DNA from: Trichopria drosophilae | Taxonomy: Eukaryota > Arthropoda > Insecta > Hymenoptera > Diapriidae | Direction: 5' to 3' | Length of the DNA: 64,000 bases | Assembly: GCA_030407085.1 (NCBI GenBank) | Contig: CM059584.1 | Location: 88,300,501-88,364,500 of the forward strand | Shown: positions 4,601 through 61,816 of the stretch, piece by piece | How positions within the stretch are numbered: position 1 is the first letter of the stretch | Layout: every line of letters starts with the position of its first letter | Translations under genes and position numbers: made by a program | Notes under the pieces: generated by a model | What the model was told of the DNA's origin: nothing | The model's database searches: none | The model's input: the letters and a program-made list of their open reading frames with translations, nothing else

Positions 4601-5206
4601 GTGACAGTGACGAGGCGAGCCGGGCTGTTCTGCCCCAGAGCGGGAGCAGCAGCCCACGGCTCCTCGATGAGGGGGAAGTGGGAGGCACCGACTGTGCAAA
4701 TTGCTTGTGTGATGGCGCGAGCAAAGGAGAATTGCCGCCCAGCAGAGCGAGGAAACACGGAGGGCCCCGGAGGCGGCGATGGCTGCCATATGGCAGTCGG
4801 CGCCGTCGCGGACCCGACGGGTGACTGGGCCCATGCCGGCACCGGGCCCAGGATCATCGCTAGCGAGGTGGTGGCGGGTTCTTCGAAGGCCGTCAGCACG
4901 AGCGCACCGTCCACGCCTCGGACGATCTTCCGCCCTAAGCGGCGGAGCGAGTCCGACGTGTTGGGCGTCGTGGTGGCGGCCACGAAGAAGTCCTGCGTAG
5001 AGGTCGAGACGGCAGGGTCCGTGGACTCCGACATGGAGTTGGACGTTGTGACCCTGCCGTCCGGATTGCATGCGGAAGGTGCCGAGGCACCGAAATGCAT
5101 GGGCGCCAAAGCTTTACTCGGAGCGATGCAAATACCGTCCTAGAGCGCCTCGGAGAGCTGCGATCGCTCCTCGAGCAGACGCTCGGGGCGGTGGTGTCGC
5201 TCTAAG
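4601..5206 (+). pseudogene. possible retrotransposon gag (ORF1) N-terminal fragment
   Basis: A GC-rich open frame (4,601-5,143) reads through KAVSTSAPSTPRTIFRPKRR and VETAGSVDSDMELDV. After a frame change near 5,110 it continues as a leucine-rich stretch, VLERLGELRSLLEQTLGAVV, that could form a coiled coil before a stop at about 5,204. A low-complexity, basic and acidic N-terminal part followed by a coiled coil is common in non-LTR ORF1 proteins, but I recognise no diagnostic domain. An equally long frame exists on the minus strand (4,525-5,109). I prefer the plus strand only because of the coiled coil, so the assignment is weak. Poly-C follows at about 5,264. Confidence 0.35.
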
Positions 5207-11830: not shown

Positions 11831-12470
11831 TGTTCGTGATATAATCACAACAAAGAGTTGCTCGGAGTCGGTTAGGAGGGGGCGCTCCCGTTACAGGTTG
11901 AACACCCATGCATATCAGAAGGGAGTACACAGGACTCTGAGTCGCTGTTTCTAATTGTGTGGTTGGTTGAATTTCCCGAGGTCTTGGCGCAATGGGAGAT
12001 TTCCTTGAACATATAAATAATTCTAATCAGTTTATCGAGAAGATCCTAAGCGATCAGTTCTCGAGCGTGTGGCAGTGCTTGAGTAGTAATTTATATAAAA
12101 TGATTTCGGGAACAATTAGTCGGTTAATTATTGTTAATTAATATATCCATTTATTTCATATGCCGTTATATATTTACATATATTTGCATGCAATGTCTGG
12201 GGCAGGGCCCGCTTCTCGTAGCCCCACTGACGAGTCCGTGAGTGGGCCCGGGACGAAAGATCAGCAAACTTGTAATAACTAATGCATGTTTATATGTGCG
12301 TGCCATTTCTTACCCGAGTTACCGGATCAGCCAACTTTTGTCTTAGAAATAGGCCACCGACGGCTTTCTCAGCGATCATACACTCTTCTCCCAGGGCCAG
12401 GGGTGCTCTCGATTTATTAACTGCACTTGCGCCACATACAGTCCACTTAAAGACCCCTATTTCCCAAACA
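11831..12470 (+). mobile_element. solo LTR, copy 1 of a hammerhead-bearing LTR family
   Basis: The 640-bp block begins TGTTCGTGATATAATCAC and ends TTTCCCAAACA, so it has TG...CA ends. It is flanked by a perfect 5-bp direct repeat GACGT (11,826-11,830 and 12,471-12,475), typical of LTR retrotransposon integration. It aligns along its whole length with 58,946-59,659. It has a short palindrome at its start, a TATA-like CATATAAATA near 12,010, and a degenerate hammerhead motif at 12,192-12,262. No internal coding region is attached, so it is a solo LTR left by recombination between the two LTRs. Relative to copy 2 it lacks about 75 bp in the middle. Confidence 0.9.
12192..12262 (+). ncRNA. degenerate hammerhead ribozyme in solo LTR copy 1
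   Basis: GTC (cleavage triplet, 12,195-12,197) is followed by stem I TGGGGC/GCCCCA, core CTGACGA (12,227-12,233), stem II GTCC/GGAC, and GAAA (12,255-12,258). Stem III is damaged: the bases after GAAA read GATC against CAAT upstream, leaving mismatches beside the cleavage site. Loop 1 GGGCCCGCT and loop 2 AGTGGGCCC can still pair over 9 positions with one G-U. The core is present but this copy is probably weak or inactive. Confidence 0.75.
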
Positions 12471-46065: not shown

Positions 46066-46401
46066 TTGAATATAAGCCAAACTGTTATATCTATTAATAT
46101 TTCGAGCACTGTTGCAGATGCTGTATAGCTATTTTTTTAAGCTTACATAAGGATTGAGTCAATAATTAACAATAAACGACGAAACTTACAGGGAAGAAAC
46201 TCGGAGCCGGGTGATTCGAAAAATTGAAATGGAGTACAAATTGGCTAAGGTAAGGTAAAGCGCATACTACAAATGCAATATATAAGGTGGGCCAAATATT
46301 CTTTATGAACTACGTGCCAGAAGCGACCGATGAACCGATAAATCCACCAAGGTACAATCTCGCTCTATAGGACTCCCCGTAATTACTGAAGTACTATGGT
46401 C

Positions 46402-46553
46402 AATTAATTGTTTATTTTTCGACCGCTTTTGAATTAATCAAATATGTAATAGATATTCTTATATTCAATATTTAGAAATAGACCGATACATACCATGGAT
46501 ATCTATTACATATTTGATTAATTCAAAAGCGGTCGAAAAATAAACAATTAATT
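46402..46553. repeat. perfect 55-bp inverted repeat (hairpin)
   Basis: 46,402-46,456 is the exact inverse of 46,499-46,553 around a 42-bp loop. The loop sequence (CAATATTTAGAAATAGACCG) and the flank GTACTATGGTCAAT recur in direct orientation at about 46,927-46,983. This suggests a larger tandem or miniature-element family. Confidence 0.92.
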
Positions 46554-47171
46554 ATTTCATAATGGTCCTATCACGTTCAGTATTTAACGATATGAAGTTA
46601 AGAACGTGATTTAATTGTTTTTAAAGGTTCATCCCAGCCTTAAGTTTTTCAAAAATTGAGATTAACTATCGCGTCCAGGGCTAGAATGTCATTAGCCCTG
46701 CTGAAGAGCACAAAAATGACATCCAGGTGCGATACGCATATTTGGCAATAGTTCAAGTTTTACGGCTAGAGGGATATTTTCTACTTTTTCCTTTTTACAT
46801 TAAAACCCAATAGTTATTGTATCAAACATTTTTTATATAAGAAGACAATTAAGTAATGCTCTCGACGTGCACTGGCATCCCACTGACGTCTATATATTTA
46901 CGTATTTATTTATTTTGATTTAAGTCAATATTTAGAAATGGACCGATACATATCAAGAATATCTATCACGTACTATGGTCAATACGTACCGCGTTCAGGT
47001 CTAATTTCTAATTATACTACCGTGAATAAAACTTGTTTTATTTTAACGATTCGAGCTGGCTGTTGATACTTAACATAAGTATGATATTTCAAAATGTAAA
47101 TATCACAATTTCCAATGAATTTACTTAAATACAGCTGTAAACGACAAATTAAAAATTAATTTTGTACTTAC

Positions 47172-56944: not shown

Positions 56945-57308
56945 CTCGGTGAGTACACATCAGACGTGCTAAAACTTTGCTCCCATTAAACTGCAAATTT
57001 CTCACCAAATTTTCATTCTCCGGAGCGAGAAACTATTTTCAATAGGTGCACCAGCTGCGGACGAACATATCGCTGCAATTTCTGTCGATATTCATCATCA
57101 ATTTAGTCCACGGTGTACCTTTTTCTGAAAAGCGAATATCTCATTTCACTGCTCTCGCCGGCCACGTGTCAACGCCATCTTGGAGCTAATGCCTAGTGCG
57201 CAAGTCCGAATACGTCACCCGAGGAAGTACATCAGCTGACTCATTACAATATCTACCGTTGAGCGCCTGTCAGCATAACTTCATTTACTGAAAAGGTATG
57301 CTAAATTG

Positions 57309-58382
57309 ATGCCCAAACCTAAATCGCGTGCTCCTCGGCCGGAAAGCATTACAGCCGCTTTGATCTGTGCGAAGTGTAAGAAGAAAACTGTAATAAATCC
57401 CGTCGCGTGTAATACATGTAAATCGGCATTTCATCCATCGTGCGCCAAATTGTTTATCGACGGCAAAGACGACTCAGTGTGTTGCGTGCGTGCTCTGTCG
57501 CACCTGCTTGTGACGTCATCGCCCCCATCTTGTGTTATTACCACGTGCAGTCCGCCCCTCCTTTCTCTGTCAACTCGCCACGCGCCCGAGAATACCACAC
57601 CTACCAGTGCCTTCACGACGCAGCCGACTACATTTTCTGCAGGCCCCTCTACTTCCAAATTGTTATCAGTCGCGCGTGCCCTATCTCCTTCTCCCTTATC
57701 CTCAACGGCGATGGATACGCAGCAAATACTCGACGCGATTGCCGATGTCAAAAACGACACTAATGCCATTCGGCTAGAAATGGCATCCCTAAATTTGGCT
57801 GTCCAGAAAAATACAGCGTCATACAATGCTCTGGCAAACGATGTAGCTTATATAAAGCACTCTATGGCACTTGCTAGACCAACAGCCGAATTAATAGTTA
57901 ATGGTATCCCTAATACCTGCGGTTTGGTACACCAGGACATCTTTCTCCGTGTTTTAACACATTTGAAACTTCCAGGCTTGTATGCCGACGTCCTTGCCAT
58001 CAATAAAATTGAATATAAAAGAACGGCAGTGCCTAAAACCAGCTCCACAAATGCAACTTCTTGTTACTTTGCATTAAAAGTGCATCTTAAATCCGTCGAT
58101 ATCCGAAATTTTATTATCGACGACAAACGCAAATTGGGGAAGATTACCGTTCAGGAACTTTTCCCGGAAATAGCTGACGGTGATATAGTAGGCAAACCTG
58201 TTTACGTTAACGAATTTTTGCCATCGTCAACGTATGCGCTCCTTAAGAAAGCTAAAGAGCTTGCAAAGAATGCAGGATATAAGCGTGTATGGGCTCGCAA
58301 TGGAAATATATTTGTTCGTAAAGATGGAGGTATTCCTGAAATTTTAATTGCCACTGAGCAGGATTTAACCAAAATTATTTGA
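57309..58382 (+). CDS. ORF1 of a CR1/Jockey-like element (element S): PHD finger plus FP-like domain
   Basis: About 357 codons from ATG at 57,309, uninterrupted. Near residues 19-52 CAKCKKKT...CNTCKSAFHPSCAKLF...CC forms a PHD-type zinc finger, as found at the start of CR1-group ORF1 proteins. A proline-, serine- and threonine-rich linker follows, then a coiled-coil-like stretch (ILDAIADVKNDTNAIRLEMA), and a C-terminal domain with ELIVNGIPNTCGLVHQDIFL and YALLKKAKELAKNAGYKRVW. In this family the protein binds element RNA and may bind chromatin through the finger. It ends ATT-TGA-CAA and ORF2 continues in the same frame. Element S runs from about 56,943 to 62,217 with a (CAAT)n tail. Confidence 0.85.
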   Translation: MPKPKSRAPRPESITAALICAKCKKKTVINPVACNTCKSAFHPSCAKLFIDGKDDSVCCVRALSHLLVTSSPPSCVITTCSPPLLSLSTRHAPENTTPTSAFTTQPTTFSAGPSTSKLLSVARALSPSPLSSTAMDTQQILDAIADVKNDTNAIRLEMASLNLAVQKNTASYNALANDVAYIKHSMALARPTAELIVNGIPNTCGLVHQDIFLRVLTHLKLPGLYADVLAINKIEYKRTAVPKTSSTNATSCYFALKVHLKSVDIRNFIIDDKRKLGKITVQELFPEIADGDIVGKPVYVNEFLPSSTYALLKKAKELAKNAGYKRVWARNGNIFVRKDGGIPEILIATEQDLTKII

Positions 58383-58945
58383 CAACCACGGCGTAATACA
58401 TCAGCTGCAAGCCAACGTACCCCCATCTCGGTTCCTGCGTTTATTAAAATTTCATCCGTTAACATTAATTCCATTCGTGCCCACCTACACGACGTTGAAG
58501 CTGAGCTCCTCGATTGCACAACTCATGCACTAGCTCTGACGGAAACGTGGCTCACACCGAATATTGACACATCGTGTGTAAGCATTCCCAACTACAATTT
58601 TGTGCGAAATGACCGCGCAATCCGAGCTGATGGGCAACCGCGTTTCCTCCAAGGAGGAGGCGTAGCATGCTACCTTCACAAGTCGCTGTCTTACACAATC
58701 CTGGAACATTCTGAAAACACCAATGTTAACTCTCCGGAATACCTTTTTCTTGATATTAAATCTTCTTCTCATAATTTGTTGCTTATCATTATGTATCGAC
58801 GGCCGGAGGGCCTACTTTTTTCCGACTTTTTAGTGAAATTTAACTTATATATCTCATCTTTTAAAAATATTATTGTTACTGGTGATCTTAATTGTAATCT
58901 GCTTACTAATACATTCGAATCAAAATATCTTAAAGGTTTTATTTC
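58383..58945 (+). pseudogene. ORF2 of element S, endonuclease part 1
   Basis: Open in the ORF1 frame directly after TGA: FIKISSVNINSIRAHLHDVE, LALTETWLTPNIDTSC, QGGGVACYLHKSLSY, IIMYRRPEGL and IIVTGDLNCNLL. These match the APE-endonuclease blocks. There is no ATG before the catalytic asparagine of NINS; the first ATG comes far inside. At 58,945 a solo LTR interrupts the frame; the residual reading continues into the LTR only by chance. Confidence 0.85.
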
Positions 58946-59659
58946 TGTTCGGGATATAATCCCGACAAAGAGTTGCTCGGAGTTGGTTAGGAGAGGGGGC
59001 CCTCCCGTCACTGGTTGAACCCCCATGCATATGAGAAGGGAGTATACAGGACTCTGAGTCGCTGTTTCTAATTGTGTGTTTGGTTGAATTTCCCCGAAGT
59101 CTTGGCGCAATGGGAGATTTCCGTGAACATATAAATAAGCCCGTTGAGGGCATTTTTAATCAGTTTATCGAGAGGATCCTAAGCGATCAGCTCTCGAGCG
59201 TGTGAGAGTACTTGGGCCAAGACTGCGGGAGGTGCGGACGACTGATTGTGAGCCCCGGGACGCCGCTCGGACTCGTCTGTGAGTGAGTAGTAAGTATATA
59301 GAATGAGTTCAGGAACAATTAGTCGGTTAATGAATATTAATTAATATTTCCATTTATTATATATTTACATATTTGCATGCGATGTCTGGGGCAGGGCCCG
59401 CTACTCGTAGCCCCACTGACGAGTCCGAGAGCGGGCCCGGGACGAAACATCAGCTAACTTGGAATAGTTAATACTTGTTTATATGTGCGTGGAACTTCTT
59501 ACCCGGATTACCGGATAAGCCAACCTTTGTCTTAGGAATAGGCCACCGACGGCTTCTTCACCGATCGTACACCCTTCCCCCGGGGCCAGGGGTGCTCTCT
59601 ATTTATTAACTACACTTGCGCCCTATACAGTCCACATAGGGATCCTACTTCCCAAAACA
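58946..59659 (+). mobile_element. solo LTR, copy 2, carrying an intact hammerhead ribozyme
   Basis: The 714-bp block starts TGTTCGGGATATAATCCCG and ends TTCCCAAAACA. The 5-bp duplication ATTTC lies at 58,941-58,945 and 59,660-59,664, and removing the LTR plus one copy restores the endonuclease frame, so both ends are exact. It aligns with copy 1 over its full length and has about 75 additional bases near 59,135-59,290. A TATA-like CATATAAATA lies at about 59,128. There is no internal region: it is a solo LTR. The family is otherwise unidentified; TG...CA ends and a 5-bp duplication are compatible with Ty3/Gypsy or BEL/Pao. Confidence 0.92.
59381..59451 (+). ncRNA. hammerhead ribozyme, all core positions intact
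   Basis: Stem III 5' strand GATGT, cleavage triplet GTC (cut after 59,386), stem I TGGGGC (59,387-59,392) with GCCCCA (59,410-59,415), core CTGACGA (59,416-59,422), stem II GTCC (59,423-59,426) with GGAC (59,440-59,443), GAAA (59,444-59,447), stem III 3' strand CATC. Together with the last A of GAAA, stem III has 5 pairs. Loop 1 GGGCCCGCT (59,394-59,402) is exactly complementary to loop 2 AGCGGGCCC (59,430-59,438). This would make the loop-loop contact that natural hammerheads use for fast cleavage unusually long. Confidence 0.88.
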
Positions 59660-61816
59660 ATTTCCGACTACTCACTCTTTTCCGTTCCCTTTGGTACCAC
59701 TCATCACTCTCGACTGTCGTACTCGCAACTAGATGTCATGATCGTAGACTCAAGTGACAAGATTAAAAATTTTTCTAAATCCTCTATGCCTTTTGCTGCG
59801 GGTCATAGCCTTATTTCAGCCTATTATGAATTTACTAATCTTAATCGTGTTCCGGAAACTATAACATACCGTGATTTTACAAATTGTGACTACACGTCTT
59901 TAATAAGCGACCTTGTAGCGCTACTTAGTCAAAAGCTTCCTAACATGCTTACACTTGAGCGAAACTATCGCGTAGCAAACTCAGATCAAATAGATTTTGA
60001 GACCAACCTCGCGGCACTATATGAATGTTTAACGGAAGTACTTAATACTCATGCGCCATTTGTTACCAAACGTATTCTACAACGTTCTATTCCATGGCTT
60101 ACACCAGACCTGCGAGCTAGAATTAAGGAACGCGACAAATTGTTTACTCGCGCTAAACGAACTAGAAACCTGTTACTACTACAGCAATATAGAATATCGC
60201 GGCGTGATCTTAAAAATCTATTAAAAGCAGCCAAGAACCGTTACTTAGCAGATTTGGTACTTCAACAAACTAGTCCGAACAAACTCTGGTCCTGCCTTCG
60301 AAGGCTTGGACTTGTAAATGAATCATCGCAGTCAGCCCTACATTATTTCCATTCTTCCATACTAAATCGTCATTTCGCTCAAGTATCTTCATCTCATCCG
60401 CCATGCGACCCATCGACTCTTACTACAATACTAATGCGGCCGCTACCTACTTCAAACACATCTTTCACCTTTTCTTCAATTAGCTGTCAAGAAGTCCTTA
60501 GTAGTCTTAATCTCGTCATTCATAAGTCACGCGGGTTAAGCTCTGACCATCTCTGTCTAACACACTTAAAGTCATTGTTTCCAATCATAGCTCCATATCT
60601 GACAGCCATTTTCAATCATTCACTCGCCATTGGTTATTTTCCGTACATTTGGAAACTGTCTTTCATTATTCCACTCAAGAAAATTGCAAATCCTCTAAGA
60701 CCCTTCGACACTCGTCCAATAGCTAATCCACCCCTCCTCTCTAAAATCATCGATTCCCTTGTCACGCAGCAAATTACTAGATTCTTGGAGGAAAATCAAC
60801 TACTAAATTCCAAGCAGAGTGGTTTTCGTAGATTTCACAGCACTCAAACAGCATTACTTCATCTCTTGGACGATATCCGTCTGGGAATAGACAGAGGTTA
60901 TGTCACCATCCTAGTACTATTCGATTTCTCGAAGGCCTTTGATTCATTGAGCCACGTCGTAATACTAACTTGCTTGCGAGACATAGGCTTTGAGGACTCT
61001 GCGCTCAGATGGGTACACTCATTCCTGACGGCTCGTTCTCACACGATCATTGGACTAGATGGACAAACATCTGAGCCGGAGTACATTACATCTGGTGTAC
61101 CCCAAGGTTCGAGTCTTGGCCCAATTTTATTTATCATAGTTATCAATACCTTATTTTCCAGGCTTCAGTACTGCCGAGATACTACTGTAATATTTGCAGA
61201 CGACACTCAACTCTATCTATCCACTCCAATAAGTCGTGTGAGAGAAACCGTACAACGCATAAATAGTGATATTGCTGAGCTGGTTAAGTGGTCCCAAGAC
61301 TTTGGCCTCACACTGAACACTCGTAAGACACAAGCCATCATTCTTGGGTCCTCCCAAAATCTTGCTACCATTAAAGACTTAACTATGCCACAAATCATGG
61401 CCGGGGATGATGTAATATCCTATTCTGATGAAGTTAAGGACCTAGGAGTGATAATAACTCACTTGCGGCGAGATGAAAGACTAGCGCCGTACCGTAGGAA
61501 AGCAAATTGGCTTAATATCCTATCTAGGCGACAATATTTTCTTGGCAATCTCACCCACCAAATCATAACAACCTCCAAGCCTTCCTATCTCGCAGATAGA
61601 TTCATCCCTTTAGCCGATTCCGTTCGCCGATCATCCCGCCTTCATTCCTCTCGTTTTACGCTCCCTATTCCACGTACTAACATTTTTGCACACTCATTCT
61701 GGATAACCGCCATACAGTTTTGGAACTCTCTTCCACATCATATGCAAATCATTACCTCCCCTGCCGCCTTTCGATCACATCTCTTCTCATATTTGTTTAG
61801 GGCTGACCAGAGATAA
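59660..61816 (+). pseudogene. ORF2 of element S after the LTR: endonuclease end and reverse transcriptase
   Basis: The frame resumes with LSYSQLDVMIVDSSDK (endonuclease end), then FAAGHSLISAYYE. Reverse transcriptase: SFIIPLKKIANPLRPFDTRP, QSGFRRFHSTQTALL, ILVLFDFSKAFDSLSH, SGVPQGSSLGPILF, and the active site VIFADDTQLYL (about 61,195). After DLGVIIT the sequence jumps straight to HLRRDERLAPYRRKANWL: about 90-100 codons present in element Q are missing, in frame. It then runs to a stop at 61,816. The catalytic core is otherwise intact; the LTR and the deletion both inactivate the copy. Confidence 0.88.

Follow-up and report, generated by a model that had tools for sequence, protein, structure and literature searches.

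What would a 71-base stretch with the look of a hammerhead ribozyme be doing inside a long terminal repeat (LTR) of an insect genome, and what kind of element carries it? The stretch lies in the window analyzed here, 64,000 nucleotides of contig CM059584.1 of Trichopria drosophilae, in which we placed the following features.

11831..12470, + strand: second, decayed family A solo LTR with an internal deletion; target-site duplication GACGT
12190..12264, + strand: hammerhead in the second LTR, with altered stem III; 27.9 bits, E 0.092
58941..58945, + strand: 5′ target-site duplication ATTTC
58946..59659, + strand: solo LTR of family A, TG...CA, 714 bp
59130..59137, + strand: predicted TATA box TATAAATA, present in 47 of 51 LTR rows; putative function
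59159..59165, + strand: predicted initiator ATCAGTT, present in 48 of 51 LTR rows; putative RNA start near 59162
59381..59451, + strand: predicted type III hammerhead ribozyme, predicted cut 59386/59387; from Rfam match, genomic copies and pairing
59394..59402, + strand: loop 1 strand of a predicted loop-loop pseudoknot; from complementarity and covariation
59430..59438, + strand: loop 2 strand of the same predicted pseudoknot; from complementarity and covariation
59660..59664, + strand: 3′ target-site duplication ATTTC

The window LTR and its predicted ribozyme

The LTR at 58946-59659 runs from TGTTCGGG to AAAACA, and its hammerhead begins at LTR base 436 of 714. A TGTT start was found in 19 of the 20 family A loci that we read as neighborhoods of 9.5-9.9 kb, the window copy included. 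Excising the LTR together with one ATTTC from the window restores an unbroken 904-aa LINE frame; the interval is therefore a solo LTR interrupting a LINE frame that is open apart from it. The ends and the duplications agree with the preliminary description of this locus, which had claimed a solo LTR with TG...CA ends and ATTTC flanks. The second window copy was not mentioned there. Within the LTR, TATAAATA at base 185 and ATCAGTT at base 214, which by their consensus we take to be a TATA box and an initiator, place the predicted RNA start ∼225 nt before the cut.

The interrupted LINE (57279-61816) comprises ORF1, with Baculo_FP_2nd and a weak PHD-like zinc-binding match, and ORF2, with RVT_1. 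A LINE of the window has 90 protein matches, the best at about 37-39% identity, and all 13 that name an organism are from insects. Elsewhere in the window, a frame at 33877-34731 matches GIY-YIG weakly (E 0.0064, below the cut-off) and looks, we presume, Penelope-like, and several plant miRNA models match both strands of 46400-46555 below their cut-off, probably as an inverted-repeat artifact.

The core, the triplet and the three stems claimed for 59381-59451 were all found in place. The core letters are GTC (59384-59386), CTGACGA (59416-59422) and GAAA (59444-59447), and the stems are formed by 59387-59392/59410-59415 (stem I), 59423-59426/59440-59443 (stem II) and 59381-59385/59447-59451 (stem III), giving the layout GATGTC / TGGGGC-loop-GCCCCA / CTGACGA / GTCC-loop-GGAC / GAAA CATC. 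The architecture is that of type III, with three stems round CUGANGA, GAAA and NUH and with stem III open. The covariance-model search proposed in the preliminary description matched 59379-59453 to Rfam RF00008 (type III hammerhead) at 39.5 bits, with E 2.1e-7 over 281 bases and 4.7e-5 over the whole window. Since this falls short of the RF00008 gathering score of 48.5, the window hammerhead is absent from a default Rfam scan. By sequence and pairing, we assign the 71-mer to the type III hammerheads and predict that it self-cleaves.

Absent from the preliminary description was a perfect 9-bp complement between loops 1 and 2, which 87 of 200,000 shuffles of the family A loops matched; the two loops of a second family, family B, are complementary over 12 bp. 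When the hammerhead structure with the pseudoknot was applied to 22 distinct ribozymes of families A, B and C, 96.2% of 520 cells were paired, compared with 93.9% in shuffles (none of 500 as high) and 35-54% in slid versions. Double changes were found at 4 pairs (10 cells) in these ribozymes, compared with 1.8 pairs in shuffles (10 of 500 as high), a test in which related rows may exceed shuffles even without structure. Four family B rows from three loci carry a loop-loop change from C-G to U-A at columns 18-56, and two family C rows carry a stem I change from G-C to A-U and a stem III change from G-C to U-A. Two further double-changed cells, in row C_L062, belong to the loop helix; as this loop is missing from C_L029, we gave them no weight. 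The best nested fold by minimum energy is not the hammerhead but a competing structure (−33.5 kcal/mol vs −16.3 kcal/mol for the hammerhead without the pseudoknot), and the loop 1-loop 2 duplex by itself was computed at about −19.9 kcal/mol.

Genomic copies and conservation of the ribozyme

A 221-base query of family A gave 602 candidates in the 936-Mb genome, and all 40 that were scored match, the window included. In 12 of the 20 neighborhoods, that of the window copy among them, a solo LTR is flanked by a perfect 5-bp duplication; L024 is a full element, also with a 5-bp duplication. A PPT lies upstream in L013 and L025 and a PBS-like sequence downstream in L028; L012 is doubtful, L015 has 4 shared bases, and L023 and L026 have none. 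L020 and L022, which have the same flank and the same duplication, may represent a single locus that was duplicated.

The ribozyme 71-mer has 64 genomic sites with up to 3 mismatches, 17 of them perfect, and the reversed control has none. Together with the E value over the window, these counts rule out a chance hammerhead. At the same threshold, control 71-mers from the promoter part and the downstream part of the same LTR have 11 and 7 sites, respectively, in counts that tolerate mismatches but not indels, a limit that could make both control figures too low. We therefore rejected promoter-like conservation as the cause, the promoter part having 11 sites vs 64. The preliminary description would have been refuted by a core no better conserved among genomic copies than chance, and the 64 sites against 11 and 7 speak for the opposite. 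By eye, NUH, CTGANGA and GAAA are kept in 62 of the 64 sites; the other two have CTGACAA (L025) and a GTG triplet.

Pairwise comparison of LTRs showed the same trend. Among 50 aligned LTR rows, 214 pairs have a similarity of 0.70-0.85 outside the ribozyme (bin means 0.79 and 0.83); within it their similarity is 0.95, and the inside value is the higher one in all 214. For the outside bins 0.85-0.90, 0.90-0.95 and >0.95, the inside value was higher in 168 of 168, 441 of 514 and 229 of 280 pairs, respectively. By mean column majority, the ribozyme ranks 20th of 645 alignment windows in 50 LTR rows, where promoter-side windows reach 0.963 vs 0.961, and 10th of 645 in the 39 rows from the 221-base query. 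In the 6 LTRs of L037-L039, which were picked by their PPT junction and not by the ribozyme, it ranks 529th of 645 (0.847 vs 0.861 for the rest of the LTR). An intact core was found in 37 of the 39 query rows, which are biased to intact cores because the search query held the ribozyme, in 5 of 5 Rfam-found rows and in 2 of the 6 LTRs of L037-L039. These counts leave out L009 (a duplicate of the window LTR), L040, L031 and the L013 fragment (too short) and L058 (no LTR match). We read the low rank in L037-L039 as decay after insertion, with the ribozyme kept in the spreading lineage.

The 5′ LTR of L037 (∼640-670) has lost 46 nt of the ribozyme, and the deletion starts, within one base, at the predicted cut site. 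A spreading ribozyme-deleted subfamily was considered and rejected, as the deletion junction has one exact genomic site; a second match, with 2 mismatches, is an ordinary undeleted copy. A search of viral contigs for relatives gave no matches.

In the Rfam genome search, 68 of 124,751 candidates were scored and 8 reported, namely six of family A (L030-L035), one of family B (L036) and one of family C (L029). Family B has 1463 genome candidates, and all 40 of those scored match. Its LTR, as read in L063 (about 635 bp), aligns with the family A LTR only over ∼80 bases round the ribozyme, at 86-87%, and L036 aligns over 144 bases at 78%. The family B ribozyme has 189 genomic sites with up to 3 mismatches, 57 of them perfect, and the reversed control has none. 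Among 100 sites listed, we counted by eye at least 9 same-strand pairs 5.0-7.3 kb apart, and in at least 4 of these 9, judged by their site matches, both ribozymes are perfect. Family C is represented by a third type III hammerhead (L029:1501-1564, 44.5 bits, below the cut-off) with a short loop 2 and 43 matches. Its unit of ∼650 bp lies between 66-bp direct repeats, some copies are close inverted pairs, and it is not clearly an LTR element.

Full elements and their coding content

Five full elements were read, four of family A (L024, L037, L038 and L039) and one of family B (L063). In L024, the LTRs are 99.2% alike, the target-site duplication is AGGTG and the distance from cut to cut is 4971 nt; both cores are intact with the cut triplet GUA, and the 3′ copy has one stem I mismatch. 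In L063, the LTRs are 99.1% alike, the duplication is ATACC, the spacing is 5112 nt and the internal part measures ∼4.48 kb. The hammerhead is recognizable in both LTRs of L038 and L063 with the 3′ core changed (to CTGACGC and CTGAAGG, respectively; the 5′ core of L063 is intact), and both cores of L039 are broken. Thus both cores are kept only in L024, one is kept in L037, L038 and L063, and none in L039.

The elements have a PBS-like sequence next to the 5′ LTR and a PPT next to the 3′ LTR. In family A, TGGTCCTTCGAGCCGGAT stands one base past the LTR and GTGGGGGAGTA before the 3′ LTR; L063 has TGGTGCCGAAACCCGGGA and the PPT TTTGTGGGGGAGAA, near that of family A. The PPT of the hammerhead LTR elements is TTTGTGGGGGAG. 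We take the PBS-like sequences to match tRNA-Tyr in family A and tRNA-Phe in family B. The 5-bp target-site duplication is common to the 12 solo LTRs and L024 among the 20 loci, and to L063. Genome-wide counts gave 30 PPT-LTR junctions, with 1 in the reversed control. PBS-like junctions numbered 187, with none in the control, for a pattern that also catches other elements. At least 14 of the 30 PPT-LTR junctions have, by eye, a same-strand PBS-like junction upstream within ∼10 kb among the 100 PBS-like junctions listed. The PBS-PPT spacings of these are 2.2-4.4 kb in 12, 6.8 kb in L038, which has inverted repeats inside, and 10.1 kb in one.

The internals of L024, L037, L038 and L039 have blocks in common. 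The internal part of L063 holds a single ORF of at least 110 aa (115 aa, antisense). Pfam returned no family at E 0.1 for 8 ORFs of 115-208 aa from the five elements, and none at E 0.01 for 3 further ORFs from L013 and L037; these tests covered the longer ORFs and part of the antisense ones. With no recognized gag or pol in the ORFs tested, an ordinary coding LTR element with gag-pol between its LTRs was rejected for the five full copies. L025 has an RVT_1 (reverse-transcriptase) piece upstream of the part that it has in common with L024. The genome search suggested in the preliminary description yielded full-length elements and, judged by the copies read, the family is not an ordinary coding LTR one.

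Two other features were seen at these loci. The minus strand of L038 (2572-2644), between its two inverted repeats, has an HDV-like ribozyme match (RF02682, 40.1 bits against a cut-off of 44, E 3.6e-4). In L012, an LTR is followed, at and downstream of 5131-5160, by fragments of a frame resembling a tyrosine recombinase (Phage_integrase at E 0.0011, below the cut-off); this interval presumably holds a longer tRNA-Tyr-like stretch, in which ARAGORN found no tRNA.

Proposed cycle, alternatives and known systems

Taken together, the window copy is probably a solo LTR from a family of large LTR retrotransposons that seem to be non-coding and whose conserved type III hammerhead would cut the transcript in each LTR and free a one-unit RNA of ∼5 kb. 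Our best reading of the elements is that they are large non-autonomous LTR retrozymes. More tentatively, and as a serious possibility, two families with different tRNA primers and one pseudoknotted type III hammerhead may have their ribozyme-cut, ∼5-kb circles copied in trans by the reverse transcriptase of an LTR element, which would make them animal LTR retrozymes. Transcription would start near 59162, upstream of the ribozyme, and with one hammerhead cut per LTR the remaining RNA would measure 4971 nt in L024 or, from its spacing, 5112 nt in L063 and would have no R repeats. We infer that linear strand transfer would then fail for want of these repeats, and that a circle is the simplest template; the same argument from missing R repeats is made for plant retrozymes in part of PMC4918200. 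A host RNA ligase would close the self-cleaved RNA, a tRNA would prime reverse transcription on the circle with enzymes from an autonomous LTR element, and integration of the cDNA would duplicate 5 bp of the target. The many solo LTRs could stem from partial cDNAs or from recombination between LTRs. The non-hammerhead minimum-energy fold, the damaged cores in 4 of 5 full elements, the lack of extra conservation of the ribozyme in the LTRs of L037-L039 and the RVT_1 piece in L025 count against this explanation.

Three other explanations were weighed. The ribozyme might trim transcript ends without any circle, with the 3′ LTR cut substituting for poly(A) in making the 3′ end, the 5′ LTR cut removing the cap, and reverse transcription switching templates on linear RNA. 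Neither AATAAA nor ATTAAA occurs in the window LTR or after TCAGT in the 5′ LTR of L063, and they are present anywhere in 4 of the 51 LTR rows scanned, as end-trimming would lead one to expect; but two 6-mers missing from ∼500 bases are not unlikely by chance, and cuts in both LTRs take away the R repeats that linear strand transfer requires, as is also argued for plant retrozymes in part of PMC4918200. We consider end-trimming unlikely. It is less likely again that the ribozyme is a brake, by which most transcripts are cut and only uncut or misfolded RNAs are reverse transcribed linearly, keeping copy number tolerable. The four full elements with at least one damaged core fit a brake, and the competing fold favored by predicted energy makes uncut RNA plausible; yet a self-imposed brake should soon vanish from spreading lineages, whereas the ribozyme has 64 sites vs 11 and 7 elsewhere in the LTR, and the 46-nt deletion of L037 was found once in the genome.

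Least probable of all, in our view, is that the block is conserved as an RNA structure without catalysis, such as a kissing, dimerization or packaging signal. Such a signal would suit the conserved, covarying loop-loop pairing and the palindrome GGGCCC in loop 1 of family A. However, loop 1 of family B reads GGGTCC and is not palindromic, and the unpaired CTGANGA and GAAA, neither of which a pairing signal needs, are kept across families A, B and C with few rows excepted. We thus prefer the non-autonomous LTR retrozyme, in which self-cleavage and circularization of the hammerhead RNA would be part of the cycle. The preliminary description had raised an animal counterpart of plant LTR retrozymes; the anatomy supports this, with hammerheads in the LTRs, PBS-like sequences, PPTs, target-site duplications and no recognized gag or pol, while the few intact cores among the LTRs of L037-L039 count against it.

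To our knowledge, Penelope-like elements and Terminons lack a tRNA-type PBS and LTR integration. In the part of PMC7761336 used here, they resemble the present elements in carrying hammerheads in retroelement repeats and differ in that these are of minimal type I. Plant LTR retrozymes, as covered in parts of PMC4918200 and PMC7761336, are alike in being non-coding and non-autonomous, in having a type III hammerhead per LTR, a PBS, a PPT, target-site duplications and solo LTRs, and in that elements of different species are dissimilar save for the ribozyme and small end boxes. They differ in LTR length (about 350 bp, vs 714 and about 635 bp here), in the unit between ribozymes (about 700 nt within a range of 600-1000 nt, vs ∼5 kb), in the duplication (4 bp, vs 5 bp, with 4 shared bases in L015) and in the PBS (tRNA-Met, vs tRNA-Tyr- and tRNA-Phe-like by our assignment), and the long loop-loop helix is a feature of the present families. 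Retrozyme circles in the literature consulted measure 170-800 nt, and the ∼5-kb circles proposed would exceed them severalfold.

Metazoan non-LTR retrozymes are likewise animal, non-coding and hammerhead-bearing, and the portion of PMC7229834 consulted gives them type I hammerheads in repeats of 170-400 nt without LTR, PBS or PPT, whereas the elements here have type III hammerheads, LTRs, PBS-like sequences and PPTs. This source and PMC7761336, in the parts seen, describe metazoan retrozymes as lacking these three features and LTR retrozymes as coming from plants. Helenus and Ajax (PMC10886601, in part) are non-autonomous LTR elements of animals and fungi whose LTRs include pieces of RNA genes; these pieces are of tRNA or 5S rRNA, the elements are under 1.3 kb, and the sections consulted describe no ribozyme.

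No report of a hammerhead in an animal LTR was found in the portions of the open-licence literature covered, so a description elsewhere is possible. The ribozyme class is already known in insects, and the LTR setting is what was not found reported. Insects are named among the holders of type III hammerheads (PMC7761336, in part), and passages of PMC7936874 list pseudoknotted ones in Drosophila pseudoobscura and, as "in preparation", in Rhagoletis, Musca and Hermetia, with no host element named there. The termite, fly and HDV-like-RNA hammerheads of the same passages are, like ours, of type III with long loops and Watson-Crick pairing between loops 1 and 2, and occur in insect genomes; those of toad and termite have an extra hairpin in helix I, unlike ours. 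An animal LTR version, if true, would mean that ribozyme-bounded LTR elements either arose across kingdoms or moved between them, and would make the circle-template model testable in an animal. In such elements the orphan insect hammerheads of type III could find their host, and the hammerheads of the same type in HDV-like RNAs would gain a further cellular source, the kind of origin that the part of PMC7936874 cited here proposes for them.
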